A stretch of 56,556 nucleotides of DNA from a virus. Shown piece by piece: positions 22,218 through 49,674 of this stretch. A program made the translations under genes and the position numbers. The stretch is taken from the IMG/VR virus record IMGVR_UViG_3300042894_006439, positions 1 to 56,556 of that record, one strand, 5' to 3'. Below the pieces are notes generated by a model, which ran no database searches, was not told where the DNA came from, and was given only the letters and a program-made list of their open reading frames with translations. Every line of letters begins with the position of its first letter. Positions within the stretch are counted from its first letter, which is position 1.

Positions 22218-22553
22218 ATGAAAATATTAAAATTTAATGAGTTTGAAGAAGTAAACGAAGCACTTCCTAGACAACAATCAGTAGATCAGCTAAAAAAAGT
22301 TATGAAAATGTCTGCAAGTACTGACATTGGTAACAGAATTTCTGATATGAATAAACAAGGTGCTAATATAGATTATATTAAAAATCCTATTGATAAAGGT
22401 ATTGAATCATACGAAGATTATGAAAAACATAATAAGAAATTTGTTTCTTCTTGGAATTTAAAAGGTTTAATCGGTCCTTTTGCACCAGAACCTAAACCAA
22501 AAGTTGATTTTGATTTAGATTATGAAAAGAAACAAGGTAAAGTAAAAAAATAA
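22218..22553 (+). CDS. Leader-bearing late protein
   Basis: 111 residues from the ATG at 22218 (MKILKFNEFEEVNEALPRQQ). The upstream ATG at 22194 lies before the promoter box and is rejected. The leader has two candidate cut sites, after FNE and after VNE (VNE-A). The body is helical and basic (SVDQLKKVMKMSASTDIGNR), with a Lys-rich tail (KPKVDFDLDYEKKQGKVKK) that could bind DNA. The function is unknown. Its stop overlaps the next start (TAATG), so it is coupled to the 2H phosphoesterase gene. Confidence 0.75.
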   Translation: MKILKFNEFEEVNEALPRQQSVDQLKKVMKMSASTDIGNRISDMNKQGANIDYIKNPIDKGIESYEDYEKHNKKFVSSWNLKGLIGPFAPEPKPKVDFDLDYEKKQGKVKK

Positions 22554-23166: not shown

Positions 23167-23952
23167 ATGAAGATACTAAAGTTTGAACAGATAAACGAAA
23201 ATAAAATGTGGTATAAAACAATACCAGAAATGTTAAACTTTCTTAAAAGTAAGTCTAACCTACCTTGGTTGTGGTTGGACACCGAAACTACCGGCTTATT
23301 AGGTCCTAAAAAAGAGCAACTAACACAAGTATCTGCACTGGCAACTAAATATAATTTTAGTTCTAATACATTTGATGAGATTAGTTCTTTTGATGATAAA
23401 ATCAAACTAACTTCTGAATTAAAGACAAGGTATAATCAACCAGATGGTGGTAATAGAAGAATTCTAAGTTTTAATCATTATGGATCAGGTGGTTATAAAT
23501 ATAAAGAGGAAAGACAAATCGTTGATGAGTTCTTTCATTGGGTCTCAAAATTTTCACCTTGTTTATTGATAGCACAGAATGCCGGATTTGATATGCAAAT
23601 GTTATCTGGTAGATTTGGTCATAAAATAACAAATGAAGTCTTAGATACTAAAATGTTGATTCAATTATATTTCTTACCACTTATTCAAAAGTTAGCAGAA
23701 ACTGATTTAACTTATCAAAAAATGGTAGATGGTATTGGAACTTCTACGAGAGATAATGGTTTAATCTCATCTTCAATGAGTAAAGTTGGACCAGCACTTG
23801 GAATCAATATGTCTGGTTATCATGATGCATTAACGGATTGTCGTATTACGATAGAAATGTATAAAAGAATAGTTGATTTATTAAATCAGTATAATAATAT
23901 AGATATATCAAAGTATCAAACCGAAAGGATAAAAAGTATTAGAACAAAGTAA
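23167..23952 (+). CDS. DEDDh 3'-5' exonuclease with virion-type leader
   Basis: 261 residues. The leader MKILKFEQINENKMWYK (cut predicted at INE-N) is followed by a DnaQ/RNase T-like domain. Exo I is WLWLDTETTGLLG (D38, E40), Exo II is LIAQNAGFDMQML (about 135-147) and Exo III is YHDALTDCRITIEMYKR (about 218-234). The His four residues before the last Asp marks the DEDDh subtype. All four acidic residues and the His are present, so it should be an active exonuclease on DNA or RNA. No polymerase domain is attached. It lies 2 bases after the 2H gene and overlaps the next start, so three leader proteins are made together. Confidence 0.85.
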   Translation: MKILKFEQINENKMWYKTIPEMLNFLKSKSNLPWLWLDTETTGLLGPKKEQLTQVSALATKYNFSSNTFDEISSFDDKIKLTSELKTRYNQPDGGNRRILSFNHYGSGGYKYKEERQIVDEFFHWVSKFSPCLLIAQNAGFDMQMLSGRFGHKITNEVLDTKMLIQLYFLPLIQKLAETDLTYQKMVDGIGTSTRDNGLISSSMSKVGPALGINMSGYHDALTDCRITIEMYKRIVDLLNQYNNIDISKYQTERIKSIRTK

Positions 23953-30375: not shown

Positions 30376-30975
30376 ATGAGATTATCCAGTCAGGCCAGTC
30401 AGTTTATATTCAATTTACCTCAAGCTTTTTTAAAGCCAGAGATTATAGATACTTATACACCAATTCTTGAGAAGAATTGGGTACAGTATGAGAATGTTAT
30501 TGATTATTTAAACTCTACTATTAAGGGTGTAAATTTTCCAGGTATCTCATTTGAATTAGTTAAACGTATCGAAGTTAGAGGTAAAGAAAGAATGTTAAAA
30601 CCTGCAAAAAACATTCAGGATATACCAACTACACATGATTTAACTGTTACATTTAGATCAGTTGATTCTGACTTAAATTACTGGTTGATGTTTGATATTA
30701 TAAGTAAACATTATTTAGATGTAGATAATGCGTTTTTAGAACCATTTACAATTACTTGTGTTGATATACATAGAGATGCAATTTATGTAATTCGTTTTTA
30801 TGAAATAATACTTAAATCTTTATCTGAGAATACTTTCAACTACTCACAACAAAAAGTTAATGCGAAAGAATTTACAATTACTTTTCACTTTAACTTTTAT
30901 GATATTGAGTTCTTACTTAATCAAAGTAAGGTACTTGAACTTGGTAATGTACCTCAGATTATTCAGATTATTTAA
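30376..30975 (+). CDS. Tail-tube-like protein (gp19/gp54 type)
   Basis: 199 residues. The pattern STIKGVNFPGISFELVKRIE (about 48-67), then TTHDLTVTFRSVDSDLNYWL (about 85-104), MFDIISKHYL and a final FTITFHFNFYDIEF (about 172-185) resembles T4-like tail tube proteins and the related tube-baseplate junction proteins: strand pairs around a central helix and an N-terminal F-P-G turn. T4 gp19 is 163 residues. The slightly larger size and lack of a closer motif leave the two alternatives open. It is the last virion gene before the minus-strand glycan island. Confidence 0.6.
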   Translation: MRLSSQASQFIFNLPQAFLKPEIIDTYTPILEKNWVQYENVIDYLNSTIKGVNFPGISFELVKRIEVRGKERMLKPAKNIQDIPTTHDLTVTFRSVDSDLNYWLMFDIISKHYLDVDNAFLEPFTITCVDIHRDAIYVIRFYEIILKSLSENTFNYSQQKVNAKEFTITFHFNFYDIEFLLNQSKVLELGNVPQIIQII

Positions 30976-31105
30976 AAAGATTTTCAATCTTAATTTTTCT
31001 TCTATTTCTCTTACTAAATAGTTCTTTCATGATGTCTGCATCAATTGACTTTGTCAGCTCATCTGCTAACATTTGTGTTATTTTATCTACTACATCGATA
31101 CTCAT
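30968..31105 (-). CDS. 45-residue conserved-motif peptide
   Basis: A short frame with ATG at the complement of 31103-31105 and TAA at 30968-30970, encoding MSIDVVDKITQMLADELTKS followed by IDADIMKELFSKRNRRKIKI and a short end. The motif (amphipathic helix, then K-S-I-D-x-D-I-M-K-x-L) is a recognisable type of short phage peptide. Its 5' part is duplicated at 32077-32145, which argues that it is or was a real coding sequence. It overlaps the tail-tube gene end by 8 bases on the other strand. Confidence 0.6.
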   Translation of the reverse strand: MSIDVVDKITQMLADELTKSIDADIMKELFSKRNRRKIKIENLFK

Positions 31106-31110
31106 ATTGA
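31046..31110. repeat. Direct repeat copy 1 (about 65 bases)
   Basis: This stretch and 32088-32152 agree at about 80% of positions in the same orientation; both contain the core ATTTTATCTACTA. They bracket a cassette of two genes. Copy 1 is the 5' part of the intact 45-residue gene. Confidence 0.75.
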
Positions 31111-31713
31111 ATATTTTGATTTATATAAAATCTCATCATTACTTTTAACTTCATTAAAAATAGGTAGATCGGATGTAACACTCATTGTAGTATCAAAGTA
31201 AACCCCTTTTATAATAGATTTATTTTTAAACTTTCTAAATAGATAGTCGTCACCACACCAAATTTTTAATTCTTCTGGTATTTGTACATAATATTTTTTA
31301 TTAAAAATAATCATACAACCAAATCCCCAATTTCTATTATCAGTCTCTTCTAATCTAAAGTTAGTATCACTTGGATCTTTATAAGATTGTTCTGCAACTC
31401 CTATTATTGTTTCATCTGCAACACTTAGTTGATTAAAAAAGTTCACATCAAATACTATATCATCATTTAATAAAGCAACTATTTCAAAATTAGATTTTGA
31501 TACTCCTAAATTCCAGGAAGGGTTTACGTAGATATTTTGATCCATCTTTACATAAATTACTTTATTATATTGATTAGTATCTATATTTTTAGATTCATAA
31601 TCATTGTCAATAATTAAAATCTCCCCAATTACATCACATTTATTTAAGTTATTTAATAATATTTCTAACTTATTTGATTTCCACATTGTTGGTATTACTA
31701 TACTTATTTTCAT
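31102..31713 (-). CDS. GT2-type glycosyltransferase
   Basis: 203 residues. It starts MKISIVIPTMWKSNKLEILL, a GT-A fold N-terminus, with EILIIDNDYES (about 31-41), NPSWNLGVSKSNFEIVALLN (about 64-83) and DD at about 84-85 as the metal-binding pair. It is short compared with typical GT2 enzymes (about 250-300) and may lack the acceptor half. It overlaps the upstream gene by 4 bases. It sits at the distal end of the island between two direct repeats, so it may have been acquired as a cassette. Donor and acceptor are unknown. Confidence 0.8.
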   Translation of the reverse strand: MKISIVIPTMWKSNKLEILLNNLNKCDVIGEILIIDNDYESKNIDTNQYNKVIYVKMDQNIYVNPSWNLGVSKSNFEIVALLNDDIVFDVNFFNQLSVADETIIGVAEQSYKDPSDTNFRLEETDNRNWGFGCMIIFNKKYYVQIPEELKIWCGDDYLFRKFKNKSIIKGVYFDTTMSVTSDLPIFNEVKSNDEILYKSKYSI

Positions 31714-32042
31714 TTTACTTTCTTATTATTTAGTTTAGAATCTATATATTCTTTTATCCATTCATTATTAAAATATTTATCTATTAAATAATTTTGATTT
31801 TTTAAACAGTTTTCATATAAATTCTGATCATTTTTTAAAATAATGATCTTTTCTATAAATTCCTCAGCAGATTTAAAAATGGTTTCCTTACTAAAGTAGT
31901 CATTATTTTCAAATGGAAATACTAAGTCTGTATATTCCATCATCATTAGTGAGTTTTTTGATAGACCCTCAAAAAATCTTTTACATAAGTGTCCAGTACC
32001 ATTTAGGTTTAGAAAGAATTTATATTTTAAAAATGTATTCAT
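31710..32042 (-). pseudogene. Truncated glycosyltransferase (C-terminal part only)
   Basis: The open frame from ATG 32042 gives 110 residues: FLNLNGTGHLCKRFFEGLSK, TDLVFPFENNDYFSKETIFK and a final helix. This resembles the C-terminal donor-binding half of a GT-B or GT10-like enzyme. Upstream the same frame continues without an ATG (reading SSHIDVYNNIPPDIF) and then meets a copy of the N-terminus of the 45-residue phage peptide in another frame. The N-terminal half is therefore missing, and the gene looks like a recombination remnant. It may still be translated, with its end coupled to the GT2 gene. Confidence 0.65.
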
Positions 32043-32076
32043 GAATATATCTGGTGGTATATTATTATAAACATCT

Positions 32077-32145
32077 ATATGACTACTGATTTTGTTAGTT
32101 CGTCAGCCAACATTTGTGTCATTTTATCTACTATATCTATATTCA
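32077..32145 (-). pseudogene. Duplicated 5' fragment of the 45-residue gene
   Basis: On the minus strand this reads MNIDIVDKMTQMLADELTKS, then VVI and a stop (the stop codon is formed at the junction). It matches the first 20 residues of the gene at 30968-31105 with a few changes. The copy ends exactly where the truncated glycosyltransferase sequence begins, marking a recombination junction. Confidence 0.7.
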
Positions 32146-32152
32146 TATTTAC
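32088..32152. repeat. Direct repeat copy 2 (about 65 bases)
   Basis: Second copy of the repeat at 31046-31110, about 80% identical by eye. Divergence between copies implies the event is not recent. Confidence 0.75.
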
Positions 32153-32589
32153 ACATATTTTTCTACATAATCAGAACATATTGCATATGCTTTGTCAATG
32201 TCTTTAAATTCTTTAGTTTCTGGCATTACTGCAACTGAATTACTACTTAGTTCTTTACCTGGATATGTCCAAAAATAACCCATTGAAGTAATAGTGAAAT
32301 CATCTTCTTGATGCCAAAAGTAATTTACATCATATCCACAATTCTTTAATAGAACCAGTGATTCTAAATTTTTACAATGTATCCACAATTTTTCTATTCT
32401 ATCACGTAACCATCTAAAGTCAACTCCGTATTGAGGTTTATCGTGTCCAAGATATATTATATTATCAATAAACCAAATATCAATCTCTACATCAAATCCT
32501 TTTTTAATTGCCATATCAATATAATTTGGTTCATTTTCATATGACTCAAATTTTCCGTTAATGTTTCCTCTATGTGATATTAGTTTCAT
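32149..32589 (-). CDS. Short GDPD-like phosphodiesterase-fold protein
   Basis: 146 residues. It starts MKLISHRGN, the start of glycerophosphodiester phosphodiesterases (the His-Arg pair). NEPNYIDMAIKKGFDVEIDI (about 19-38) supplies the expected E-x-D metal pair and IIYLGHDKPQYG the second catalytic His. GDPDs are normally about 240-300 residues, so this is a half-length TIM-barrel form. Here it sits 2 bases after the RuBisCO-like gene, in a nucleotidyltransferase/cupin/methyltransferase group, so it may hydrolyse or transfer a phospho-linked sugar substituent. Activity is uncertain because of the short length. Confidence 0.7.
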   Translation of the reverse strand: MKLISHRGNINGKFESYENEPNYIDMAIKKGFDVEIDIWFIDNIIYLGHDKPQYGVDFRWLRDRIEKLWIHCKNLESLVLLKNCGYDVNYFWHQEDDFTITSMGYFWTYPGKELSSNSVAVMPETKEFKDIDKAYAICSDYVEKYV

Positions 32590-32591
32590 TA

Positions 32592-33770
32592 TTATTTCTT
32601 ACCCCATTTTTCTATTGCTACCTGGTATTCACCGGATAGATTACCGTCAATTGATTGTCTCATTGCCTTTGTACCAGCTAGTGTACCATTTGGATGACCG
32701 TGTATGGCACCACCTACGTTAGCCATATAATCAATTCCAACTTTAGAATTAATCCAATCAGTTAGTCCAGGATGGAATCCACAACTAAGTGCAGGCATTA
32801 CATTATACTTATGTAATGTTTCAATAGAGTTTATTACTTCACTTTCATCCCATTTATAATACCCACCAATCATTCCGACATGTATAAAGTCAACTCCCAT
32901 CATTCCTGCTAATTTAGAGATAACGTTCCAGTCAATGTGAAAGTCATGGTTTTTATTAGTCAATATTTTATCACCACTTTTTTGAAAATGTATAAATATT
33001 GGTAAGTCTAATTCTCTTACTGCCTTATAGACTCCTAGTCCACACCAAAAGTTAATATGAACTGCATTACCACCTAATTCATAAACTTTTTTTACTCTAT
33101 CAATTATATATGGATAGTCTGAATGTATAGAAACTGCATAAATAACATTTTTGTCTTTTAAGTATTCCATAATTAGTGGTACTCTTTCTTCGATAGTACA
33201 GAAAGATGGGTTACTTAAAATCTCATCTTCTTTAATAAAGTTGACACCCCCTTCTACCAGTTCTTTAACCATCTCCAAAAGAGTTTGTGGTGAGATACCA
33301 GTCTTTGGCTTAACAATAGCACCAAGTATTGGTTTATCAAAACACTTTGTATATTCTCTTATTCCTTTGATTCCGAATTTTGGACCTAAAAATAATTTTT
33401 CAATTGATTCTGGAAATATAATATTTAAAACTTGACATTTTATAATATTATCAATATCTAATTGACCACCCATTATATTTACTAATAAATGTGAAATACC
33501 ATCTGTTTTGAAGTCTATATTTATAGTTGGAAAAGCAATATCAACAGTTCCTAATTTTTTAGTTTTTAATAATTCTTCATCTTCTAATATTATACAGGAA
33601 TGATTATCAAACAACTCCTCTGATTCCCATTGATTTCTGACATTTGGATTACCAACACTTTGACCTATTGCAAGATTCCAAGAAGCATCTCTAAGTGTTG
33701 TAGTAGACTCTAAGAAGTAGGTTACTATAAAGTAGTCTTCTTTATTTATTTTTTTTCTAAAAATATTCAT
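32592..33770 (-). CDS. RuBisCO-like protein (form IV-like large subunit homologue)
   Basis: 392 residues, somewhat shorter than RuBisCO (about 450-475). Clear family motifs: GAIVKPKTGIS (150-160; K154 and K156 correspond to K175 and K177 of spinach), GGVNFIKEDE (174-183; K180 is the lysine carbamylated in RuBisCO, and D182 and E183 are the metal ligands), FIHF (about 249-252), DFIHVGMIGG and GGAIHGHPNGTLAG. Loop 6 reads GGYYKWDE rather than VGKLEG, and the Asn equivalent to N123 appears replaced by Gly. These changes argue against CO2 fixation and for a RuBisCO-like enolase, isomerase or decarboxylase. It sits within a sugar-nucleotide cluster, so a sugar-phosphate substrate is likely. Very unusual in a phage. 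Confidence 0.88.
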   Translation of the reverse strand: MNIFRKKINKEDYFIVTYFLESTTTLRDASWNLAIGQSVGNPNVRNQWESEELFDNHSCIILEDEELLKTKKLGTVDIAFPTINIDFKTDGISHLLVNIMGGQLDIDNIIKCQVLNIIFPESIEKLFLGPKFGIKGIREYTKCFDKPILGAIVKPKTGISPQTLLEMVKELVEGGVNFIKEDEILSNPSFCTIEERVPLIMEYLKDKNVIYAVSIHSDYPYIIDRVKKVYELGGNAVHINFWCGLGVYKAVRELDLPIFIHFQKSGDKILTNKNHDFHIDWNVISKLAGMMGVDFIHVGMIGGYYKWDESEVINSIETLHKYNVMPALSCGFHPGLTDWINSKVGIDYMANVGGAIHGHPNGTLAGTKAMRQSIDGNLSGEYQVAIEKWGKK

Positions 33771-33774
33771 AATT

Positions 33775-34482
33775 TTAATTTGTTTTTTTTATGTAAGCAG
33801 ATGGACAAATATAATTTAGATTTTTTATTTCTAAGTTCATCTCATTTAAAAATTTATCTACACCTTTAGATTCTGACCATTTTGAGTGTGCATACTCATC
33901 GAGTACAATTATACCACCTCTGGAGAGTCTATCCCAAAAGTTTTTAAGAGTATTATAAGTTGGTACTTCTAGATCTAAGTCAATATATAAAAGTGATATT
34001 TTAAATCCTGGATTATCTTCTATGTATTTTTTACTTGTTAGAGAAATATCACCTTTAACTAGTTCAAAGTCTTCATCTTTAAATCCATCTAGTTTAAGTT
34101 TACTATATAATTCAGATTTAAAATCTTTTTCATGTTCAAAGTTTCTTCCATTAAATAAAAGTGACATTGTTTTTTTATCCAAATTATCTAAATTTGATAA
34201 TAGATCTTTAGTGTCAAAAAAGTCAAAACCAACTACTCTTTTTAGTGAGTTTGGGTTCATTATTTTTTTTAATTTCAAGAAGGTATAGAAACCAGATCCT
34301 TTGAACACACCACACTCTACAATATCACCTGGGATATCTTTTACTTCATCATATAATAGTGTTCTTGCGACTAATTTATTAAAGACCTTTCTATCATTAC
34401 TCATAATAAATCCATTAAAGTTATCAAATAAACTTTGATTAGTATTTTCTATTTCTATTTCTTCAATATTCATGTTAGACAT
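33775..34482 (-). CDS. TylF-like SAM-dependent methyltransferase
   Basis: 235 residues from the ATG at 34482 (MSNMNIEEIEIENTNQSLFD); an upstream ATG at 34563 would overlap the cupin gene by 89 bases and is less likely. Motifs: GDIVECGVFKGSGFYTFL (SAM-binding motif I), VVGFDFFDT, LLYIDLDLEVPTYNTLKNFW (metal-binding D-x-D as in TylF/macrocin O-methyltransferase) and GGIIVLDEYAHSKW. TylF-type enzymes methylate sugar hydroxyls and need a divalent metal. It lies 4 bases before the RuBisCO-like gene and overlaps the cupin gene by 8 bases. It probably O-methylates a phage-made glycan. Confidence 0.85.
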   Translation of the reverse strand: MSNMNIEEIEIENTNQSLFDNFNGFIMSNDRKVFNKLVARTLLYDEVKDIPGDIVECGVFKGSGFYTFLKLKKIMNPNSLKRVVGFDFFDTKDLLSNLDNLDKKTMSLLFNGRNFEHEKDFKSELYSKLKLDGFKDEDFELVKGDISLTSKKYIEDNPGFKISLLYIDLDLEVPTYNTLKNFWDRLSRGGIIVLDEYAHSKWSESKGVDKFLNEMNLEIKNLNYICPSAYIKKTN

Positions 34483-34795
34483 TATATTTATCTTCCGGTA
34501 AGGATGGTGTTTTGATGACCAATATTTTACAATCTGTAATAAATATCGGTGTTGCAGTTTCATTTGGATCTATAATAAATATATCACCTTTTTGTATTTC
34601 TTTATCATTCATAATCATCTCACCTTCTACTAATAAATTAATTTCTGTTGCAATTTTATGAATATGAGGTGCCCAAAATTCACCTTTTTTATGTGTTAAA
34701 AGACCGACTTCAAAGCTTTTAGTTTTATAACAGGCTGGTTCAAAGTTACCAATAAACCAACCTCTGTAATATTCTTCTAATTTAGTTATTTTCAT
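34475..34795 (-). CDS. Single-domain cupin
   Basis: 106 residues. The cupin pattern is present: GEFWAPHIHKIATEINLLVE (about 38-57; H-x-H...E motif 1) and GDIFIIDPNETATPIFI (motif 2, with the usual His changed to Glu or Thr). The fold fits small sugar-epimerase or isomerase cupins and metal-binding sensors. With one ligand of motif 2 missing, catalysis is uncertain. It overlaps the nucleotidyltransferase gene by 14 bases and the methyltransferase gene by 8, so the three are made together. Confidence 0.8.
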   Translation of the reverse strand: MKITKLEEYYRGWFIGNFEPACYKTKSFEVGLLTHKKGEFWAPHIHKIATEINLLVEGEMIMNDKEIQKGDIFIIDPNETATPIFITDCKILVIKTPSLPEDKYNV

Positions 34796-35474
34796 TTTTT
34801 AAATATTTTTTTAAATCTTCTGGAGTACCAATTGGGAAATGTTGGTTAAACATGTAGATTCCAATTTTATACTTATTTTTAATCAAATAGTTGTAACTCG
34901 GTGCAACATAAAGTTCGTTATTAGTTCTATCGTTATTTAATTTCATCTCATCATATGATTCAAAGAAGTATTTAGCCTTTTTCCAATAGTGTAATCCGTT
35001 TGTGGCAATATTTGAAATAACAACTTTTTCTTTCACATCAGTAACTAAATTGTTGTCATCAACTTTAACATATGAGTTTTTATTAGAATTTGAGATAAAA
35101 CATCCCAGAACACCGTCATATCTTCTGGCAAATGATAGAAATAAATCTTTATTCCAATCTTTTATTATTTGGTCACAATTAGTTATAATTAACTCTTGCT
35201 CAAGATCAATTAAATCTTTTGCTAAATATGCGGTAGTTGCCGGACCATCAGTAACATAATTAATATCTATTATATTAACTTCATCATTTTCAAAACTGAT
35301 AGTATGCTCTTCTCGTTTAATTATGAAAAAATTGACATCTGATGCAAAAAAATTATCTACAACATGTTGTATCATATTTTTATTATTCCAAGATATAAGA
35401 GGTTTCGGTTCAATAAAATCTGAGTTTATAAATCTGGACCCTCGACCCGCCATCGGTACTAAAATTTGCAGCAT
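34782..35474 (-). CDS. Sugar-phosphate nucleotidyltransferase
   Basis: 230 residues. The N-terminal signature is ILVPMAGRGSRFINSDFIEP (4-23), with the G-x-G-x-R NTP-binding loop, then KPLISWNNKNMIQHVVDNFF (24-43), LIITNCDQII (about 94-103; the D of metal binding) and NGLHYWKKAKYFFES. This is the short form of the NTP_transferase family that activates sugar phosphates as NDP-sugars. The particular sugar is unknown. The gene is preceded at its very start codon by a run of ten ATT-type trinucleotides (35475-35503), a possible slippage switch. Confidence 0.88.
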   Translation of the reverse strand: MLQILVPMAGRGSRFINSDFIEPKPLISWNNKNMIQHVVDNFFASDVNFFIIKREEHTISFENDEVNIIDINYVTDGPATTAYLAKDLIDLEQELIITNCDQIIKDWNKDLFLSFARRYDGVLGCFISNSNKNSYVKVDDNNLVTDVKEKVVISNIATNGLHYWKKAKYFFESYDEMKLNNDRTNNELYVAPSYNYLIKNKYKIGIYMFNQHFPIGTPEDLKKYLKNENN

Positions 35475-35503
35475 ATTATTATTATTATTATTATTATTAT
35501 TAT
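35475..35503. repeat. Trinucleotide microsatellite (ATT)n directly at a start codon
   Basis: About nine and a half ATT repeats, read as AAT/TAA on the coding strand, placed immediately before the ATG of the nucleotidyltransferase gene. Length change would alter ribosome access or spacing rather than frame. Confidence 0.9.
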
Positions 35504-36255
35504 CGTTTAATATTTAGACAGGTATCGATAGATACCTGTGTACTATCTCTTCCTAATTCGTCTATATCTCTTTTATCCCACTTTCTATACTCTCTTATAA
35601 TATAATATTCTTTTATATTGACATTTTCAATCAAGTTAAAATCTATTGAACTTCTTTTAATAATTTCAGTGAAGACTTTCTCAGGACTATCTAGATATGA
35701 AAGTTCATTAATATTTTCAATTGAAATGTTTTTAAAAGTCTTTAAAAATGTATCCTTACTAGATATGAAGAAATGGTCATTTAGTTCATTTGTACTTCCT
35801 TTGTTTTTCCAAAACAATTTCGGTAATGATAAACTTTTAAAGTTAAAATTTTCAATGATAATTTTTAAATCACTTCTACAAAAAACATAATACTCATAAT
35901 CTTGAAATAGATCTGAAATTAGATTAATTTTCTTATAAAAGTGAAAATAACCATATACATTAGACAAGTGTGAGACTTTAGATATATCTAATCCATTTAG
36001 AACGTTTATTTGTGATAAAAGACTATTCTTTGTTGGTTGTTTATCTATTAAATAATAGTCAAAGTTATTATTTATACTGTCTATATCTAAATCATAACTT
36101 TTATAATCCTGATCTAACTGATTGTTATTAAACCATGTTGATAAAAGTGTGTGACATTCATGTTCTTTGAAGTTTTGTAGTAATGTATTTTTTACTTCTA
36201 AAACGGATTCCAAATTTGGTCTAACAAGACCGTGTATAATTAAAAGTATTTTCAT
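35500..36255 (-). CDS. Glycan-island protein, possible glycosyltransferase
   Basis: 251 residues. It begins MKILLIIHGLVRPNLESVLE, then LLSTWFNNNQ, SNVYGYFHFYKKINLISDLF and QDYEYYVFCRSDLKI (about 119-133; a possible R-x-D or DxD-like acidic site). A short hydrophobic-acidic C-terminus follows. It is similar in style to capsule or O-antigen polymer enzymes that act on glycan chains, but no catalytic motif is certain. It sits 3 bases before the next gene and follows another GT-like gene. Role inferred from context. Confidence 0.65.
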   Translation of the reverse strand: MKILLIIHGLVRPNLESVLEVKNTLLQNFKEHECHTLLSTWFNNNQLDQDYKSYDLDIDSINNNFDYYLIDKQPTKNSLLSQINVLNGLDISKVSHLSNVYGYFHFYKKINLISDLFQDYEYYVFCRSDLKIIIENFNFKSLSLPKLFWKNKGSTNELNDHFFISSKDTFLKTFKNISIENINELSYLDSPEKVFTEIIKRSSIDFNLIENVNIKEYYIIREYRKWDKRDIDELGRDSTQVSIDTCLNIKR

Positions 36256-36258
36256 GTT

Positions 36259-37044
36259 TTAATACCAAGCATTTCCATTTAAGTGTTCTACAACTGATTC
36301 TTGATCCCATTGACCATATACAAAGCAACCAAATTTTTCGGAAGCCATATCAAATCCCATTGTATCAATATAAAACTTATAGAATTCATTTAGTGGTCCT
36401 TCTACAAATCCACCCTCATTTGAAGTAGGATAAACAAATGTTGACCACCAGTTTTGAAAAACTTTAGTTTTACATATATATGGATTATTTGACCATCTAA
36501 AAGTAGGTATTAAAGGAATTTTATCAGACGGATTTTTACCATTTTGTATAAGGTTATCATATCTAATATTATTATTATCAAATTGATTTAATCTAATATA
36601 GTTTACCTTATCACTTGATAAAACTTCATCTATGAGTGGATTTAAGTCAATTTCTTTTCTCAATACCCAGTCATGTTCCCAAAAAATATAAGATTCAGTT
36701 TTAACCGAATTAATTAAATTTATGAAGTTTTTTGGTGCGGTAATAATTGGATCAGTTGAATCAGATGAGCTAACTAGTAATTCATAGTTTTTAAATTTAC
36801 TTTTTAGTTCAAGTAGATTTTGATGATATTGTTCATCAACAGGTCGACCATTTCTTTTATCATATCCAATATGTATAAATACATTATCTGGATTTATATA
36901 TGATTTTTTGAAAAAGTCATTAATAACATTTTCAATTAGTCTAGTTGATGGTGCGGAAGGAACTATATTTTGCACACCTCTATAAATTCCTTGACTTTCT
37001 GTTTTTGTACAATGTGTTGTTATACATAGTGTTATTTTATTCAT
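36259..37044 (-). CDS. GT-A-like glycosyltransferase
   Basis: 261 residues. It begins MNKITLCITTHCTKTESQGI, with RLIENVINDFFKKSYINPDN (alpha/beta Rossmann part), YIFWEHDWVLRKEIDLNPLI (about 118-137; acidic E-H-D likely at the metal site) and SNNPYICKTKVFQNWW at the acceptor side. Size and layout fit GT-A enzymes acting on surface glycans. The family number is uncertain. It lies 3 bases from the next downstream gene. Confidence 0.7.
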   Translation of the reverse strand: MNKITLCITTHCTKTESQGIYRGVQNIVPSAPSTRLIENVINDFFKKSYINPDNVFIHIGYDKRNGRPVDEQYHQNLLELKSKFKNYELLVSSSDSTDPIITAPKNFINLINSVKTESYIFWEHDWVLRKEIDLNPLIDEVLSSDKVNYIRLNQFDNNNIRYDNLIQNGKNPSDKIPLIPTFRWSNNPYICKTKVFQNWWSTFVYPTSNEGGFVEGPLNEFYKFYIDTMGFDMASEKFGCFVYGQWDQESVVEHLNGNAWY

Positions 37045-37058
37045 TTCTATTTTTATTT

Positions 37059-38000
37059 TTATAAGTATATTTTTTTGAATTTATCCATTACTACTTCTGG
37101 TAAACAATCATCATAACACTTCCAATTTATATTATAATTTGGTTCAAAGTTTATTAAAATTTTCAATAAATCCTCATAGTTATTATAATAAAAACCCTTG
37201 TCACCCAAGTATTCTATATGATTTCTTTCTTTTGAACCAAACCAAGTTATAACTGGTTTATTTCTCATAGAGAATTCTGCACAAGTACATCCAAAAGATT
37301 CACCAATATCTCTTGCGTGTAACAAAACATCACAAGTATTTATAAATTCAACTTTTTCATCTAAATCCGGAGATGATGGTAAATAAATAATTCTTTCATG
37401 TTCGTAAAAATTATCAGTACCTTGAAATAGGAAGAATATGTCATTTCTTAATTTAAGTGCTTCTATAACAGCGTGTTTTGCAAAGTTTAGGTCAAATGTG
37501 TCATGACCACCATTTCTACCAAATACAACCGCATCTTTTGGTATACCAAGTTTATCTCTCATATCGGTTTCAATATTTGGTAAATTAACCATATATGAAA
37601 CATAGTCAATTTGATTATTTGTTATTTTACTTAACCATTTTGAACCCATTGCATATCTTTGTCCATGAATATCATTAGTATTACATATTGCAATTGCATT
37701 TATCCAATTGTCACAGTAGTTAGATATAACACCATCATATCTACCACCCTTTATCATAAAAAAGGCATCACACTTTTCTTCTCTAAGTATATTATCTATT
37801 TGATTGGTTTCCTTATAGGAAAAAACATCAAATTTAGATTCAAACCTATCTATTGCAACCTTCATATTATGTATAGAATTTTCATTATACATAATAATTG
37901 GTTCAATATTAAATAACTTTTGAGATTGCTCTGCATAGTCCCAAAGTGCATTAGAAGTGCCTCTTACACTTAATCCATTATCGTGAAAACATACTTTCAT
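37059..38000 (-). CDS. GT4-like glycosyltransferase (GT-B)
   Basis: 313 residues. GT-B features: an N-terminal domain (MKVCFHDNGLSVRGTSNALW), a middle with VVFGRNGGHDTFDLNFAKHA (about 167-186), and a C-terminal donor-binding part with CDVLLHARDIGESFGCTCAE (about 233-252) that contains the E-x-F-G-x-x-x-x-E motif, then RNKPVITWFGSKERNHIEYL. This motif grips nucleotide-sugar donors in retaining GT4 enzymes. The N-terminal domain is shorter than usual (total about 360 is typical). Donor sugar unknown. Confidence 0.82.
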   Translation of the reverse strand: MKVCFHDNGLSVRGTSNALWDYAEQSQKLFNIEPIIMYNENSIHNMKVAIDRFESKFDVFSYKETNQIDNILREEKCDAFFMIKGGRYDGVISNYCDNWINAIAICNTNDIHGQRYAMGSKWLSKITNNQIDYVSYMVNLPNIETDMRDKLGIPKDAVVFGRNGGHDTFDLNFAKHAVIEALKLRNDIFFLFQGTDNFYEHERIIYLPSSPDLDEKVEFINTCDVLLHARDIGESFGCTCAEFSMRNKPVITWFGSKERNHIEYLGDKGFYYNNYEDLLKILINFEPNYNINWKCYDDCLPEVVMDKFKKIYL

Positions 38001-38006
38001 TTTATT

Positions 38007-38852
38007 TTAATTTTTTTTTATAAAATCTTCTATTTTTACTTTTAAAGACTTTTTATAGTTATCCCACCACTTTGAGCATAAATAACTTAGTTGTTCTTTA
38101 TTAGAATCTTTCATTTTTTCAAAAGAATCATTCCAATTTTTACCAATTATAAAAGGATGATCACCATATATTTTAGTAAAGTAATCACTACCGTCATTAT
38201 CTAGTACAGATACCGGAATTGATCCACTTTCAAGAGCTTCATTTATTCTAAAACTATCTAAACTTATCCAACCTCTTGGACAAAGAGTAAAGTAGCTTCT
38301 GCTTAGAATATTAGAAAAATCTTTCACTCCTAATCCATTTGGATCTGCCCACCTTTGAGTTAGTAATACATATTTTTTATCTACACTATTAAAGGTATTT
38401 AACATCTCATATCTATCTGATTTTAATTGACCAACGAAGTTAATATCTAAGTCTTTATCTAGGTCTACTTTTTTAATACCACTTTGATATCCTAAAGGTA
38501 TTGTCAATATATTATACTTTTCTATATATTCTTTATTGTAGTAATTCCTAATTATTTTTTTAGAAGTATTATAGAAGTCTATATTTTGTTCAAATGCTTC
38601 ATCAGAAAGATGTAAGATACTATAATTAAGATTTAGTGAGTTATACCCATTGATATAATCAATAAGTCTTGTATTAGGTTCCTTACCAACAGAGACAATT
38701 AGAATAGAATTATCAACAAATAGATCAAATTTATTTTCAATATCATAATGATTTTTAATCAAGAAATTTGAAAAAATATTTTTAATCCAATCAAATGAAA
38801 AAGCTACTTCATAATCAGTTTTAACCAACCATATTAGATTTATTTCTCTCAT
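38007..38852 (-). CDS. Exostosin-like (GT47-type) glycosyltransferase
   Basis: 281 residues. The C-terminal half carries the exostosin pattern: FTLCPRGWISLDSFRINEAL (about 194-213) followed by ESGSIPVSVLDNDGSDYFTK (about 214-233). The same motif occurs in the second half of the protein at 41169, so the two are related. Exostosins add glucuronic acid or other sugars to polysaccharides. It shares one base with the gene upstream (38852). Donor unknown. Confidence 0.8.
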   Translation of the reverse strand: MREINLIWLVKTDYEVAFSFDWIKNIFSNFLIKNHYDIENKFDLFVDNSILIVSVGKEPNTRLIDYINGYNSLNLNYSILHLSDEAFEQNIDFYNTSKKIIRNYYNKEYIEKYNILTIPLGYQSGIKKVDLDKDLDINFVGQLKSDRYEMLNTFNSVDKKYVLLTQRWADPNGLGVKDFSNILSRSYFTLCPRGWISLDSFRINEALESGSIPVSVLDNDGSDYFTKIYGDHPFIIGKNWNDSFEKMKDSNKEQLSYLCSKWWDNYKKSLKVKIEDFIKKN

Positions 38853-39523
38853 TATCTCAAAGTTGATTTATAAGTACCTGATTCTGATCCTTGGAAACAA
38901 GGACTTGGTTCTAACCAATAGGTAGTAAGGTTATGTAAGTAAATATGATAAGCAACCTCCCAATCAGAAACTAGTTGAAATGGTATAATAGTATCTATTA
39001 TTTTCTGTGCTGCTTTTTGTGATATTAAATATGAATCTAAGCATCTAGTAGCAGGATTTTTTGCCTTATAGAACTTTTTATCATTAGTAATATTATCGGC
39101 ATGTAAGTTACACCCAGATCCAACCATTATTAAATCCCAATCATTAGGTAAGTCAGAAATCATTGAATTAAAATCTTCAATAAAATGTTCTTTTAATAAA
39201 AGATCATCTTCTATAATAAAAGCGTCTCCATTTTCGGCGACTTTTTTAATTGCTAAAATATGTTTAATTGTACAAGATATTTCTGCAGGATTAAGAACTC
39301 TAAAGTTATGTACTTGAGGACTCCAAAGTGATACTTTTTTTATCCATTCATCTGATGACGGATAATAAAAACTATTTAGTATTTCAGTAGTTAGTTCATC
39401 CTTATCATATTCATTTATAAATTCTAAATTAGCAAAATTTGAAAATTGTTCTATTATTTTTTCCTTTCTATCTTCTAACTTTGTATAGTGTATAACGTAT
39501 ACTTTTGGTATATTCAATTTCAT
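38852..39523 (-). CDS. GT25-type glycosyltransferase (LPS biosynthesis family)
   Basis: 223 residues. The family start is present (PKVYVIHYTKLEDRKEKIIE, about 5-24), then LNPAEISCTIKHILAIKKVA (about 76-95), the DAFIIEDDLLLKEHFIEDFN acidic metal site (E-D-D, about 99-118), DWDLIMVGSG and LDSYLISQKAAQKIIDTIIP. GT25 enzymes add galactose or other hexoses to LPS or to hydroxylysine. Full domain present, so probably active. Confidence 0.85.
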   Translation of the reverse strand: MKLNIPKVYVIHYTKLEDRKEKIIEQFSNFANLEFINEYDKDELTTEILNSFYYPSSDEWIKKVSLWSPQVHNFRVLNPAEISCTIKHILAIKKVAENGDAFIIEDDLLLKEHFIEDFNSMISDLPNDWDLIMVGSGCNLHADNITNDKKFYKAKNPATRCLDSYLISQKAAQKIIDTIIPFQLVSDWEVAYHIYLHNLTTYWLEPSPCFQGSESGTYKSTLR

Positions 39524-39524
39524 A

Positions 39525-40400
39525 TTATTTTATTATTTTTTCAAAAAAAGAAAGAACTGATTCTGGTTTAGCAAATTCAGGTATTTTATTATCAGTAAAC
39601 CAAGGTTGATTCATTATCTCTTTGTATAAATTTTGATCATTATCTATTTTAATTATCTCCTCAATTAGATGTTCATCTGAATCAAACTTACTCAAATCTA
39701 AAAATGAGTTCGGATTAAAATCATTCTCAACAAGTGTATCACCCCAGTATATAGGAATACTGTCGGCAAACATCGAGTGTATTATTTTTTCTGTACAATA
39801 ACCTGGGTTAGAGCTATTTTCAAAACTAATGTTAAACTTATAGTCTTTTAAGAAGTTTATTTTTTGAATCTGATCACCTCTACCTTCTACAGTATTTATA
39901 TTATTAAAAACTCTCCCACCACAGTCAATATGTTTATATCTATGTAATTTAGGTACAAATTCCATTCTTCTACCTTTAGGTTGAGATGCAATAAAACTAC
40001 AAAATTTTGTTTTATTGATAGACTTCTTATTTAAGAAGTCTTCAACTGAGTGAAGGTATGCTTGATCTCTTTCTGCGTTATATGGTCGATTAAACCAGTT
40101 TAATATAAGAACCCATAGTGGTAGTCGATAATTTCTTGGGTCGTCAGAATAGTCAAAAGATAGTGAATAGTGACACTCATTATAATTTGGTCTATAGTTT
40201 TCACCGGTATATAAAATTTTTATAACCCTATTCATATCATATCTAAGATGATTATTTCCATAAACTGTATAAAAAAGTATATCAGGATTTATATTATCTA
40301 CAATAACCTTATACTTTAATGATAATAAGTTATAAAAATAATTATCATATGGTAATAACTCACCCCAAAAATCAGAGTAACCTATTTTAATTTCTTTCAT
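39525..40400 (-). CDS. GT10-type alpha-1,3-fucosyltransferase
   Basis: 291 residues. GT10 motif: FNISFENSSNPGYCTEKII (about 191-209), then HSMFADSIPIYWGDTLVEND (about 210-229), the GDP-fucose-binding region of alpha-1,3/1,4 fucosyltransferases (F-E-N-S...Y-x-T-E-K...A...P-I-Y-W-G). N-terminal part: GYSDFWGELLPYDNYFYNLL. GDP-fucose is made by the gmd and fcl genes of the same island, so donor supply and use are encoded together. It lies 1-7 bases from both neighbours. Confidence 0.9.
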   Translation of the reverse strand: MKEIKIGYSDFWGELLPYDNYFYNLLSLKYKVIVDNINPDILFYTVYGNNHLRYDMNRVIKILYTGENYRPNYNECHYSLSFDYSDDPRNYRLPLWVLILNWFNRPYNAERDQAYLHSVEDFLNKKSINKTKFCSFIASQPKGRRMEFVPKLHRYKHIDCGGRVFNNINTVEGRGDQIQKINFLKDYKFNISFENSSNPGYCTEKIIHSMFADSIPIYWGDTLVENDFNPNSFLDLSKFDSDEHLIEEIIKIDNDQNLYKEIMNQPWFTDNKIPEFAKPESVLSFFEKIIK

Positions 40401-40407
40401 ATTTATT

Positions 40408-41172
40408 TTATTTTTTTGTAAGCCACTCTTTTCTCCAAGGTTGTCCTCCAGAAAAGTGTCTTATTATTACTTCATCAGGACTTAGTTTATTTATATTAAA
40501 CTGACCATCTGTTTCTCCAACCATCTCAGTGACATTCCAAGCAGTTGGTAATACTTCTACATTCTCGTATAATTCCTCTAAAGAATATACTGTGTTCTCA
40601 TTCTTATCACTATGCCATCCAAAATCAGAAAGATTAAAAAATGGTTCCCAGCTATGTCTCTTTACACCCGCAAGTGAGTACCAAGAAGCTTGTTCTCTAA
40701 ACTCATGCCAAAATGATGAGAAATGTCCAAATGCTTCATGTTGAGTTACTTTATCATTTAATAATTTATATCTATCTTCATCTAAGATAAGATCTATCAT
40801 TTTTCTTGACCAATCATTTATTTTAATACTATAACATCCCATACAATGTGTATTACCAGAGTCAATTGAGTAAGAGAATGATTTATTTGTTACGAATTCT
40901 TGTTCCATGTCAACTATAGCCATATCTGCATCTAGATGAGTTACAATATCACCATCTTTTAGAGTACCATCTTTTATCATATCTCTAACAATAGTAAATT
41001 TCCACCAGGTAGGGTTATTTCTATGAAGTGTTAGATTAGTATCATTTTTTATTTCAATATAATTAAATCCCCACTTCTCACAATACTCTTTATTTCTTGG
41101 AGAAAAATTAGACTCAAAGAATTCCTGTCGCCAGTCGTTATATCTAGCAATTACTATTAAATATTTATTCAT
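40408..41172 (-). CDS. GT-A glycosyltransferase (galactosyltransferase GT34-like)
   Basis: 254 residues. It starts MNKYLIVIARYNDWRQEFFE, with HRNNPTWWKFTIVRDMIKDG (about 50-69), then the metal site VTHLDADMAIVDMEQEFVTN (D-A-D, about 78-97) and a C-terminal IIRHFSGGQPWRKEW (H-x-x-G-x-x-P donor site). These match nucleotide-sugar transferases of the GT34/GT77 type. It overlaps the start of the upstream gene end by 4 bases. Donor unknown. Confidence 0.82.
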   Translation of the reverse strand: MNKYLIVIARYNDWRQEFFESNFSPRNKEYCEKWGFNYIEIKNDTNLTLHRNNPTWWKFTIVRDMIKDGTLKDGDIVTHLDADMAIVDMEQEFVTNKSFSYSIDSGNTHCMGCYSIKINDWSRKMIDLILDEDRYKLLNDKVTQHEAFGHFSSFWHEFREQASWYSLAGVKRHSWEPFFNLSDFGWHSDKNENTVYSLEELYENVEVLPTAWNVTEMVGETDGQFNINKLSPDEVIIRHFSGGQPWRKEWLTKK

Positions 41173-42656
41173 AATTTATTTATTATTTGTTTTGACATAC
41201 TATCTAATGAAAAGTAATTGTCATATGCTTTTATGACATTTTCTTGCATTTGTTTTATTTTATCTTCACTAATATTTGATAGAATACTATCAATATTATT
41301 AATATCAGAACTATGTATTGAAACGGAGAAATCATTCCAGTTTATAGTATCGGTAAATGCTCTCCAATCTTCATCATATATATATACCGGAATACTACCT
41401 AGTTGCATTGCTTCATACATTCTAAATGAGTTTTTACCATATCCTCTTGGACAAAGTGTAAATATACTTCTTGATGTAATATCAATAAAATTGGTTAAAT
41501 CGGATTGACTAACTTTATCTGTCCAATTTTTGTATTGTAAATTATATTTCTTATTATTACCTAATATACTAACCATTTGTTGTCTTATTGGATGTGTAAT
41601 AGATCCAACAAATGAGCAGAAGATGTCTTTATCTTTAGTAACTTTTATCGAGTCTGGAATAGGTGAGCAAACTAAGGGTATTGGAATTCCTGGCATATTA
41701 CCACCTGCTGAGAATTTTTGAACCTCATAAGGAAAATGCTCTTTTATTGCATCATCATGTTGACTAACAGTAAAATACTTTTTAGTTTTATCTAAACTTA
41801 GTAACTTTTCTTGTAGTAAAGAAAGACTTACGTTTTGTATATAGCAAGTTGTCCAGTCAACTGGGATATAGTAAATATCTTTATTAGGTTTATTATTATT
41901 GTAGTAGTCAAAGAAAAATCCTTCTATATATTTACCAGTATGATATGGTGGATAAACTGGATAAGTAGGATTAGGTCTAAATTCTTGAAAGAAGGTATTA
42001 AGAAATTTTTGGTAGTCTTGTTTACCGAGTAAGTTTTGTTTTTTTAGATTATTTTTAAATCTAACAATTTTTAATAGTTCGACTTTCTTATCAATACCTT
42101 CTACCCAGTTTGAATGGTGCATAAGTAAATTATCTGGTATATCAAAGTTTTGTCCTTTCCATTGTGTTCCAAATGATCCAAATGTCCAAAATCTTGTTGA
42201 TAAGACCGTATAGTTGCAATGATTTAGATTCATATTTAATGCGTGTTGATCCTCTAAGTATTGGTCGTGATTATCTCTCATACTTTCAAACATTTTAAGT
42301 GTTCTCTCATTTCCACGACAAACAAAAAATCCAGAACAAAGTCCACCATTATAATCATTTTGTATTGCAATATCAAACTCACCTAATTCTTGTATTAAAG
42401 CATCTTTAATAGGTCCAAAAAACTGTATATCAACATCAGAAAATACAAATATATCTCCCATATTTTCATTTACTGCTTTTATAAAAACATCAACCTTTTT
42501 CATTGTTGTTGTTTTCCAACCATCAGAATAGTAAGAGCCACTTTTACATTCTTGCTCTCCTATTGTTGAATCAATTTCTAAATCTTCTACAGTCTTAGAA
42601 AAATAGTTTTCAAATAAGTCTTTATGACTTTCTGTATAATATGTGTATATTTTCAT
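41169..42656 (-). CDS. Bifunctional glycosyltransferase: GT-A domain fused to exostosin-like domain
   Basis: 495 residues, two complete domains. The N-terminal part (1-210) is a nucleotide-diphospho-sugar transferase: DIFVFSDVDIQFFGPIKDAL (D-x-D at about 74-76), NDYNGGLCSGFFVCRGNERT and QHALNMNLNH. The C-terminal part (about 225-495) is exostosin-like, with IFCSFVGSITHPIRQQMVSI, IFTLCPRGYGKNSFRMYEAM and QLGSIPVYIYDEDWRAF. The C-terminal motif is shared with the gene at 38007. The fusion suggests two sugars are added one after the other by one polypeptide. Confidence 0.85.
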   Translation of the reverse strand: MKIYTYYTESHKDLFENYFSKTVEDLEIDSTIGEQECKSGSYYSDGWKTTTMKKVDVFIKAVNENMGDIFVFSDVDIQFFGPIKDALIQELGEFDIAIQNDYNGGLCSGFFVCRGNERTLKMFESMRDNHDQYLEDQHALNMNLNHCNYTVLSTRFWTFGSFGTQWKGQNFDIPDNLLMHHSNWVEGIDKKVELLKIVRFKNNLKKQNLLGKQDYQKFLNTFFQEFRPNPTYPVYPPYHTGKYIEGFFFDYYNNNKPNKDIYYIPVDWTTCYIQNVSLSLLQEKLLSLDKTKKYFTVSQHDDAIKEHFPYEVQKFSAGGNMPGIPIPLVCSPIPDSIKVTKDKDIFCSFVGSITHPIRQQMVSILGNNKKYNLQYKNWTDKVSQSDLTNFIDITSRSIFTLCPRGYGKNSFRMYEAMQLGSIPVYIYDEDWRAFTDTINWNDFSVSIHSSDINNIDSILSNISEDKIKQMQENVIKAYDNYFSLDSMSKQIINKL

Positions 42657-42671
42657 TTAATCTATTATTTT

Positions 42672-45243: not shown

Positions 45244-45310
45244 GTGTAAATATTTTTGTATTTCTATATTCTAGTTAAAAGGACAATAGATTATGAGATA
45301 GTAAATCTCT

Positions 45311-46039: not shown

Positions 46040-46054
46040 ATTTTTTTATTTTTT

Positions 46055-47555: not shown

Positions 47556-47583
47556 AAAAAGAAGAGTATTACTCTTCTTTTTT
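47556..47583. terminator. Bidirectional terminator
   Basis: AAAAGAAGAGT-ATT-ACTCTTCTTTT with A- and T-tracts on both sides. It ends the plus gene at 47543 and overlaps the stop region of the clpC-like gene (47569). Confidence 0.85.
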
Positions 47584-49674
47584 AATTTTCTTTCTCTTTT
47601 TCAAGTTGACTGTTGTCACTTCTTTTTCAGTATCGTAGTCAAGTACTAAAGTAGTACCTTCTTTTGGTTCACTTTCAATAATGAATTCAGTTACTGCATC
47701 ATCGATACTTCGTTGAATAGCTCTTTTCAAAGGTCGTGCACCAAATTGAGGATCATAACCAATCTCAACTAAATGTTCTTTTAAAGAATCAGATACTTCT
47801 AAAGTAAATCCAATCTCTAAACCTCTTGCTAAAGTTTTTCTTAGTTCAAGATCAACAATTTTCATTATCTCTTCTTTACCTAAATCTCTAAAGTAAATAA
47901 TTTCATCTAATCTATTGATAAATTCAGGTGCGAATTTTTTCTTCAACTCTTTTTCTAAGATACCTTTTATATCATCTTCTCTTTTATCTGTTTTAGTTTT
48001 GGTAGAGAAACCAACACCTGCACCAAACTCTTTAACAACTTTAGTACCAACATTTGAAGTCATTAAGATAACACAGTTTTTAAAACTAACTTTTCTACCA
48101 TGAGAATCTGTAATATGTCCTTCATCTAACATTTGTAAGAAAAGGTTAAATATATCTGGATGTGCTTTTTCAATCTCATCTAAAAGAATAACTGAATAAG
48201 GTTTTCTTCTAATCTTGTCTAAAACATTCGCATCATCATATCCAACATATCCAGGAGCTGCTCCTTGAATTCTTGTTAAAGATATTTTATCCATATATTC
48301 AGACATATCTAATCTGATTAAAGAATCTTCTGATTCAAATAAATACTTAGATAATTGTTTCGCCAATTCTGTTTTACCAACTCCAGAGTTACCAATTAAG
48401 ATACCACTAAAGATTGGTTTGTTAGGATCTTTCATACCAACTCTACCTCTTTGGATAGATTTGATGATTTTCTTAACTGCGTCATCTTGTCCAACAACTT
48501 TACCTGCAATGTTTTCATACATTTTAGAAAGTTTTTTATTTTCACTTTGATTTACTTTTTGAACTGGAATACCAGTAATCATAGCAACAACCTCCGCAAC
48601 ATTTTCTTCACCAACTAATTGTCTGTTTTTCAAAGTTTCTTCTTCCCATCTTTCTTTAGCTACTTGTAATTGATTATTTAATTGTTTTTCAACATCTCTT
48701 AATTTAGCTGCTTCTTCATACTTCTGACGTTTGATTACATCATTTTTCTTTTCTTTGATTTCGACAATCTTTTGCTCTACATCAGTAATTTCTTTAGGAA
48801 CTACTATGTTAGAAATGTGAACTCTTGCACCCGCTTCATCTAAAGCATCAATCGCTTTATCTGGTAAGTGTCTATCAGACATATATCTAACAGTTAGATC
48901 AACACAAGCTTTGATAGCTTCGTCAGTGTAAGTTACGTTGTGGTGAGACTCATACTTATCTTTTATGTTTGTTAAGATTTGTATAGTTTCTTCTGGGGTA
49001 GCAGGCTCAACAACTACTTTTTGGAAACGTCTTTCTAACGCAGCATCTTTTTCAACGTGTTTTCTATATTCATCAAGTGTAGTTGCACCAATGATTTGTA
49101 TTTCACCTCTTGCCAAAGCAGGTTTAAACATATTGGAAGCATCCATAGAACCACTTGATCCACCGGCACCAATCATTGTATGAATCTCATCAATGAAAAG
49201 GATAATAGATTTATCATCTTCAACCTCTGCCATAAGAGCTTTGATTCTCTCCTCGAATTGGCCCCGATATTTCGTACCTGCAACCATAGAAGCTAAATCT
49301 AACATAACAACTCTTTTGTCAAATAAGATTCTACTAACTTTACGTTGAGCAATTCTAAGTGCTAATCCTTCTGCAATAGAAGATTTACCAACTCCTGCCT
49401 CACCAAGCAACATAGGATTATTTTTCTTTCTTCTTGAAAGTATTTGAGAAACTCTTTCGATTTCTTTATCTCTACCTACAATAGGATCAAGTTTACCTTC
49501 TTCGGCGTATTTGGTTAAATCACGACTGTATGTATCTAATACCGGAGTTTTAGATTTAGTGTCAGATTTTTTACCATTACCACCTCCAAATTTGTTGTAG
49601 TCATCGTCATCATCATCTTCTAAGGAAGCTTTAATGTCGAGTGTTTTCGTAAGTAATTGTTTGTTTATCTCCAT
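47569..49674 (-). CDS. ClpC-like AAA+ unfoldase lacking the N-terminal domain
   Basis: 701 residues; ClpC is about 820-850. A short acidic stretch ([10 protein letters not shown]) is followed directly by AAA1 with GEAGVGKSS (Walker A, about 93-101), [10 protein letters not shown] and the R-finger region LERRF. A short middle region with the UVR-type [20 protein letters not shown] (about 319-338) follows, then AAA2 with [22 protein letters not shown] and TSNVG, and the ClpP-loop-like GAGVGFS. The usual N-terminal Clp_N double repeat is missing. The V-G-F tripeptide suggests ClpP docking. With phage DnaK/J/GrpE it could disaggregate or degrade host or prohead proteins, and would need a different recognition element. 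Confidence 0.9.

Follow-up and report, generated by a model that had tools for sequence, protein, structure and literature searches.

A stretch of viral DNA of 56,556 nucleotides (IMG/VR record IMGVR_UViG_3300042894_006439, positions 1 to 56,556; the window) encodes a RuBisCO-like protein (RLP), here termed vRLP, which represents a new clade of a known superfamily, lies in a new and well-defined gene context, and is maintained by selection. Huge phages and many other viruses carry this previously undescribed branch of the RuBisCO family. Since the parts needed for carboxylation are lost and the gene is accompanied by a fixed set of sugar-activating genes, vRLP probably helps to build an unusual surface sugar. 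The relevant features of the window are:

30376..30975, plus strand: conserved phage gene on the left flank of the glycan island, 80% identical to LR745206.1 and 79% to LR756502.1
31102..46039, minus strand: glycan island (the cassette plus glycosyltransferase-like genes), ~15 minus-strand ORFs between syntenic flanks
32149..32589, minus strand: short GDPD-like protein of 146 aa, core member of the cassette, recognised by its HR, ExD and H motif and its fold
32592..33770, minus strand: vRLP, 392 aa, recognised by Pfam PF00016, AlphaFold, Foldseek, a residue table and a tree
33775..34563, minus strand: TylF-like O-methyltransferase of 262 aa, outside the conserved set (Pfam TylF, E 1.3e-8)
34475..34795, minus strand: small single-domain cupin of 106 aa with an invariant HxH(x4)E metal motif, core member of the cassette for one type of nucleotidyltransferase
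34782..35474, minus strand: nucleotidyltransferase of 230 aa, sugar-phosphate NTP transferase family, core member of the cassette (Pfam NTP_transferase, E 1.1e-7)
47569..49674, minus strand: ATP-dependent protease-like gene on the right flank (PHROG 4871, E 1.5e-227)

The vRLP reading frame is intact, with an ATG start and 392 codons. A sequence-only reading had claimed the RuBisCO fold from the motifs KPK, GGxNFxKEDE and GxHGHPxG; all three are present, and both the Pfam profile and the modelled fold agree with it. Against Pfam RuBisCO_large (PF00016) the protein scored 120 bits at a curated cut-off of 30.1 (E 1.5e-34), and a PDB search matched 99 RuBisCO or RLP chains (best E 6e-36), with MtnW (2oek) and form III RuBisCO (8dht) tied as top sequence matches at 127.4 bits. 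The AlphaFold model, made with 52 relatives, had a pLDDT of 94.3; its nearest structure in Foldseek was form III RuBisCO 8dht (TM 0.89, 25% identity), with MtnW ranking behind. An above-cut-off catalytic domain together with the RuBisCO fold places vRLP in the RuBisCO superfamily. The NCBIfam models for RuBisCO and RLPs matched at E 1e-25 to 1e-53, every one of them far under its curated cut-off: form III scored best (180 bits, cut-off 497), and the others were the RuBisCO large subunit (161, cut-off 438), MtnW (139-160, cut-offs 409-514) and OiaX (146, cut-off 700). Comparison with the closest relative (91% identity) gave a dN of 0.042 and a dS of 0.661 (dN/dS ~0.06). The gene is under strong purifying selection, and vRLP can therefore be regarded as a maintained enzyme. 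This value and the existence of at least 147 relatives in IMG/VR exclude chance, and the original observation at 32592-33770 is confirmed.

We then compared active-site residues, in spinach numbering, across viral and cellular members of the clade. Kept in vRLP are K175, K177, K201 (the carbamylation site), D203, E204, H327, S379, G381 and G403, and K201, D203 and E204 were retained by every clade member examined. Replaced are E60 (Gly), T65 (Asn), N123 (Gly), K334 (Tyr), G380 (Cys) and G404 (Ala), and further H294 (Gln), R295 (Lys) and H298 (Asp) in a region, 292-298, where the alignment is ambiguous. These replacements were near-uniform over the viral and cellular members examined: all clade members have Tyr at K334 and Gly at E60, and the Q-K-S-G stretch that stands in place of H294-R295 was invariant in 52 sequences. 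The earlier description of an enzyme with its carbamylation lysine and metal ligands in place and with loop 6 and Asn123 altered was thus accurate. When RuBisCO carboxylates, E60 and K334 together close loop 6 over its substrate. With this pair gone and the metal site for enolisation intact, vRLP is predicted to carry out Mg-dependent enolate chemistry without carboxylation. It lacks K334 and E60 as well as N123, H294 and R295, which bona fide RuBisCO of forms I-III would have, and falls under the broad definition of form IV, or RLP, as a RuBisCO homologue without residues essential for carboxylation. The replaced substrate residues and a placement outside forms I-III both support the earlier prediction of a RuBisCO-like enzyme that does not fix CO2.

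Scanning IMG/VR with the window protein returned 12 relatives of 65-92% identity, and a profile scan found vRLP on at least 147 contigs, of which 80 were retained (55-92% identity, contigs up to 294 kb). None was found in 50,697 GenBank phage records. Searching the GTDB species genomes with two peptide patterns gave six matches, namely three SAR11 single cells, one Patescibacteria MAG, one Crocinitomicaceae MAG contig, and a Desulfosporosinus protein that proved to be an RLP of another kind. The Crocinitomicaceae copy (DORI01000002.1, a 3.3-kb contig of MAG UBA8924) is probably phage DNA binned into the MAG, and was set aside because its RLP is identical in the tree to that of a viral contig. 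Three Bacteroidota matches at E 3e-4 were, judging from their sequences, aspartate carbamoyltransferase-like false positives. A whole-genome search of 247 Pelagibacterales genomes found vRLP in two; the second copy (47% identity) lies among chromosomal genes that, judging by sequence, include GyrB-like and LepA-like ones. In cells, vRLP was thus found only in a handful of SAR11 genomes and a single Patescibacteria MAG. In the SAR11 single cell AG-447-E20 (CACJFS010000004.1), a cupin and an RLP of divergent sequence (39% identity) form a pair at a contig end, preceded by genes resembling prfA and prmC and by a masked stretch of 5 kb, a setting that we take to resemble the SAR11 hypervariable region adjoining the rRNA genes.

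In a maximum-likelihood tree, the 27 viral members (window included) and five cellular members grouped together (support 100/100) on a stem ~2.4 changes per site long. Forms I, II and III, MtnW, OiaX and related RLPs, and Bacillota RLPs, used as references, fell outside this clade, and the phylogeny proposed earlier as a check put vRLP in a clade of its own, not inside forms I-III. The clade grouped weakly with OiaX and a related RLP (80/21), a grouping that is without SH-aLRT support and joins long branches. The SAR11 copies were nested among viral ones, which indicates that vRLP genes have moved between phages and cells.

The window itself covers part of a huge phage that has LR745206.1 (634,780 bp) and LR756502.1 (642,428 bp) as relatives. 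Its right-flank ATPase/protease is 69% identical to both, its SSB is 82% identical to that of LR745206.1, and its genes to the left and right of the island show synteny with both genomes. In the slot corresponding to 30975-47055, LR745206.1 carries a different gene set, glycan-like by sequence, in which neither RLP nor cupin, nucleotidyltransferase or GDPD was found. From the syntenic flanks and the different contents we conclude that this huge phage has a glycan island whose contents can be swapped, and that the cassette is part of it. Genes that modify the O-chain have also been described in pelagimyophages, where they were proposed to alter the host surface and block coinfection (PMC7029224). 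Elsewhere in the window, two adjacent plus-strand ORFs (22553-23164 and 23167-23952) correspond to the two halves of a single 438-aa protein of LR745206.1, with 50% and 67% identity, respectively, so that this gene is split in the window.

Within the island the gene order is nucleotidyltransferase, cupin, methyltransferase, RLP and GDPD-like, separated by overlaps or gaps of 2-4 bases. The neighbours are those that had been named from the sequence, the cupin by its motif, the O-methyltransferase as TylF-like, and the GDPD-like protein by motif and fold. The nucleotidyltransferase profile matched PDB 4evw at E 2.7e-36, and the cupin profile matched PDB cupins at E 3e-5 to 2e-4. For the GDPD-like family the catalytic residues H6, R7, E35, D37 and H49 were invariant in 31 sequences, its profile matched GDPD at E 1e-4, and its model (pLDDT 96.5) gave a partial Foldseek match to GDPDs (probability 0.99, E 2e-3). 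None of the 31 members matched Pfam GDPD, and a complete TIM barrel is absent from this shortened fold of 146 aa. In one locus (L058:11265-12425) a single 386-aa ORF encodes a Methyltransf_24-type domain followed by the GDPD-like domain.

We next counted the partners of RLP in 53 loci dereplicated at 93% RLP identity, in which some absences reflect truncated contigs. A nucleotidyltransferase lay within ten genes of RLP in 49 of the 53, nearly always one to three genes upstream, a GDPD-like gene was nearby in 47, and a cupin in 41 (immediately upstream in 34). The gene order was conserved across these loci, and the partners were constant even where the RLPs differ by up to ~45%. Other neighbours were common at scattered positions, including NAD-dependent epimerases, FkbM methyltransferases, DegT aminotransferases, glycosyltransferases and UDP-GlcNAc 2-epimerases. 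Searching from the cupin recovered RLP in 73 of 78 loci, a fraction that is biased upward because the 80 loci retained were those nearest to the query cupin family. RLP loci without a cupin mainly have a second nucleotidyltransferase subgroup, so that the cupin tracks the type of transferase and not RLP. The TylF-like O-methyltransferase was seen in only three loci, the window and two others. Thus, of the five-gene set suggested originally, four genes recur, the cupin among them following the nucleotidyltransferase type, and the O-methyltransferase drops out. Dozens of viral loci show the proposed linkage to glycan genes, and it extends to cells; with the placement outside forms I-III, neither of the two outcomes named beforehand as refuting the earlier interpretation was observed. 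In SAR11 SAG-MED47, GDPD, nucleotidyltransferase and RLP lie within what by sequence is an O-antigen-type island, whose other genes resemble those for GDP-mannose dehydratase, O-antigen polymerase and flippase, and which adjoins a pntAB-like pair; the Patescibacteria MAG has all four cassette genes together.

Querying with the GDPD-like protein retrieved phage loci that have the nucleotidyltransferase and GDPD without RLP. In these sibling loci a HAD protein was present within three genes in 17 of 22 cases, as against 6 of 51 RLP loci (Fisher 9e-8); these six have RLP and HAD side by side in one locus. The HAD proteins were beta-phosphoglucomutase-like, PNKP-like or phosphomannomutase-like and were often fused to the nucleotidyltransferase; in one contig (L185) the place of RLP, between cupin and GDPD, is taken by a phosphomannomutase-like HAD. 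The arrangement of HAD, nucleotidyltransferase and GDPD is also found in the cultured cyanophages S-CAM9, DSL-LC03 and B23. In Synechococcus phage S-SKS1 (HQ633071.1, L238:5001-6428), one gene of a glycan cluster combines the nucleotidyltransferase with a DHBP synthase domain (Pfam E 5e-65) and is annotated solely as the synthase. DHBP synthase converts ribulose-5-phosphate into a four-carbon keto-phosphate via Mg-enediol chemistry, and in S-SKS1 this riboflavin enzyme has apparently been reused for a glycan building block. The exchange of RLP for HAD or DHBP synthase suggests that RLP would supply the phosphosugar that the nucleotidyltransferase activates, although the HAD swap could instead reflect different sugars rather than the same step. 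On another contig (L182, 7.3 kb) nucleotidyltransferase, cupin and GDPD are directly adjacent and no RLP is present. In the nucleotidyltransferase phylogeny the RLP-linked members did not form one clade, and the RLP label changed 7 times, compared with 19.7 times in shuffles, from which we conclude that the link between the two is old but not exclusive. Of note, L185 (IMGVR_UViG_3300017911_001687) also encodes an isocitrate lyase-family protein (3237-4529; Pfam ICL, E 7.6e-94) two genes ahead of its module of nucleotidyltransferase, cupin, HAD and GDPD.

On balance we favour the view that vRLP, as a distinct and mostly viral clade, supplies the precursor of a nucleotide-activated unusual sugar or polyol for a surface glycan. 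At the level of the pathway, glycan biosynthesis is well supported, and the recurrent cassette and the glycan context in viruses and cells bear out the biosynthetic role that had been suggested for the gene within its cluster. The substrate, reaction, order of steps and final glycan that we infer would be as follows. Mg2+ would be held by carbamylated K180 together with D182 and E183, and K154 would act as the general base, so that vRLP enolises a ketose phosphate drawn from the central metabolism of the host. The enediolate would then be reprotonated or rearranged without CO2, as in an isomerase or epimerase type of reaction, and the adjacent nucleotidyltransferase would join the resulting phosphosugar to an NTP. 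The same phosphorylated building block would be acted on by the GDPD-like protein and, in many loci, by the cupin, and the variable glycosyltransferases would attach the product either to the virion or, while infection proceeds, to the LPS or O-chain of the host. Direct use of a ketose phosphate by a nucleotidyltransferase has been described, with CDP-6-D-fructose in Campylobacter capsule synthesis as the example (PMC10918830). A bolder version, which we hold tentatively and would put a little short of an even chance, is that vRLP is a virus-maintained RuBisCO subfamily with a new enolate reaction leading to a previously unknown activated sugar, and would then be the first case in which the RuBisCO fold serves anabolism and builds glycans. 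As part of this version, and just as tentatively, the new sugar would remodel cell-surface or virion glycans for huge phages, other large phages and SAR11.

Among the other explanations, the one that deserves most attention, though we think it unlikely, is that vRLP, like OiaX, decarboxylates a beta-keto sugar-acid phosphate, and that the chain-shortened sugar so formed is subsequently activated for the glycan. OiaX, a known sugar-acid RLP, was among the matched models, the tree joins the two (if only by the weak grouping of long branches described above), and sugar oxidoreductases are present in the glycan clusters. However, K177, H327 and S379 differ between vRLP and OiaX, and the cassette had no conserved sugar-acid dehydrogenase or kinase across the 53 loci. 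Identity with OiaX itself was ruled out by the score of 146 bits against 700, the residues and the separate clades in the tree. We regard as improbable that vRLP serves catabolism or salvage of sugars or nucleotides during infection and lies in the glycan island merely as collected cargo. Its partners remained constant despite RLP divergence and include a nucleotidyltransferase, which speaks for activation and not breakdown, and the SAR11 copies likewise lie in O-antigen-type islands, even though other RLPs are catabolic and the island slot can be swapped between huge phages. Such a catabolic setting may be exemplified by an RLP of another clade on Vibrio nigripulchritudo plasmid pVNTG1, which has a transketolase-like gene on one side and a gene for an FGGY carbohydrate kinase on the other and is possibly part of a sugar-catabolic RLP operon.

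It is highly improbable that vRLP is MtnW, the 2,3-diketo-5-methylthiopentyl-1-phosphate enolase of methionine salvage. MtnW was the top sequence match by a hair, level with form III, but its Lys at the N123 position is Gly in vRLP, K177 of vRLP is absent from it, and no other methionine-salvage gene was recognised nearby; the equivalog cut-off, the Gly and the separate clade in the tree ruled this identity out. Least probable of all, with hardly any weight left to it, is that vRLP is a true carboxylase and provides the infected cell with CO2 fixation, the function that annotation frequently gives to viral rbcL genes. Form III is the nearest solved fold and gave the best NCBIfam score, and a soil viral rbcL, expressed with rbcS, has been reported as active (PMC12615777). 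Nevertheless, K334, E60, N123, H294 and R295 are all replaced, neither a phosphoribulokinase nor a small subunit was recognised in the cassette, and residues, tree and NCBIfam cut-offs together ruled out forms I-III.

If the favoured reading of vRLP as a supplier of glycan precursors is true, the RuBisCO fold also serves to build glycans, a use that viruses have exploited and spread, and the four small adjacent genes would open the pathway to direct tests in vitro. On the basis of profile annotation, viral copies of rbcL have been described as genes for carbon fixation (for example PMC12615777, in which one was tested with rbcS, PMC8506154 and PMC13390420); another study noted that random IMG/VR viruses carry rbcL and placed its own copy, from a landfill, with 'RbcL-like' proteins (PMC12607003). 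Published calls of this kind may include members of the vRLP clade. Carbon fixation is not expected of such genes, and estimates of virus-driven carbon fixation therefore need a check of K334, N123 and E60. In the openly accessible journal papers that were searched, we found no description of the clade, its residues or the cassette. The GOS survey of 2007 listed 65 RuBisCO homologues outside the known groups (PMC1821046), and the vRLP clade may explain some of the unassigned marine homologues seen since then; compared by description only, those are like vRLP in being marine, in falling outside the then-known forms I-IV and in not conserving N123.

Compared with known systems, vRLP shares its fold (TM 0.88-0.89), metal site, K175 and K177 with form III RuBisCO (8dht, 3a12), but differs from it in the five replaced residues K334, E60, N123, H294 and R295, in its 25% identity, in its own clade and in its glycan cassette. 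MtnW (2oek) is likewise an RLP with the metal site, Gly at E60 and loss of K334, whereas its Lys at the N123 position, its lack of K177 and its place in methionine salvage, of which vRLP has no recognised neighbours, set it apart. OiaX, the 3-oxo-isoapionate-4-phosphate decarboxylase, is an RLP that resembles vRLP in its Gly at N123 and acts on a sugar-acid phosphate, but it keeps H294, R295 and K334 and is catabolic. The modules of S-CAM9, DSL-LC03, B23 and S-SKS1 have HAD or a fused DHBP synthase instead of RLP, but have the same nucleotidyltransferase, mostly the same GDPD-like family, and the same location in glycan clusters as the vRLP loci.
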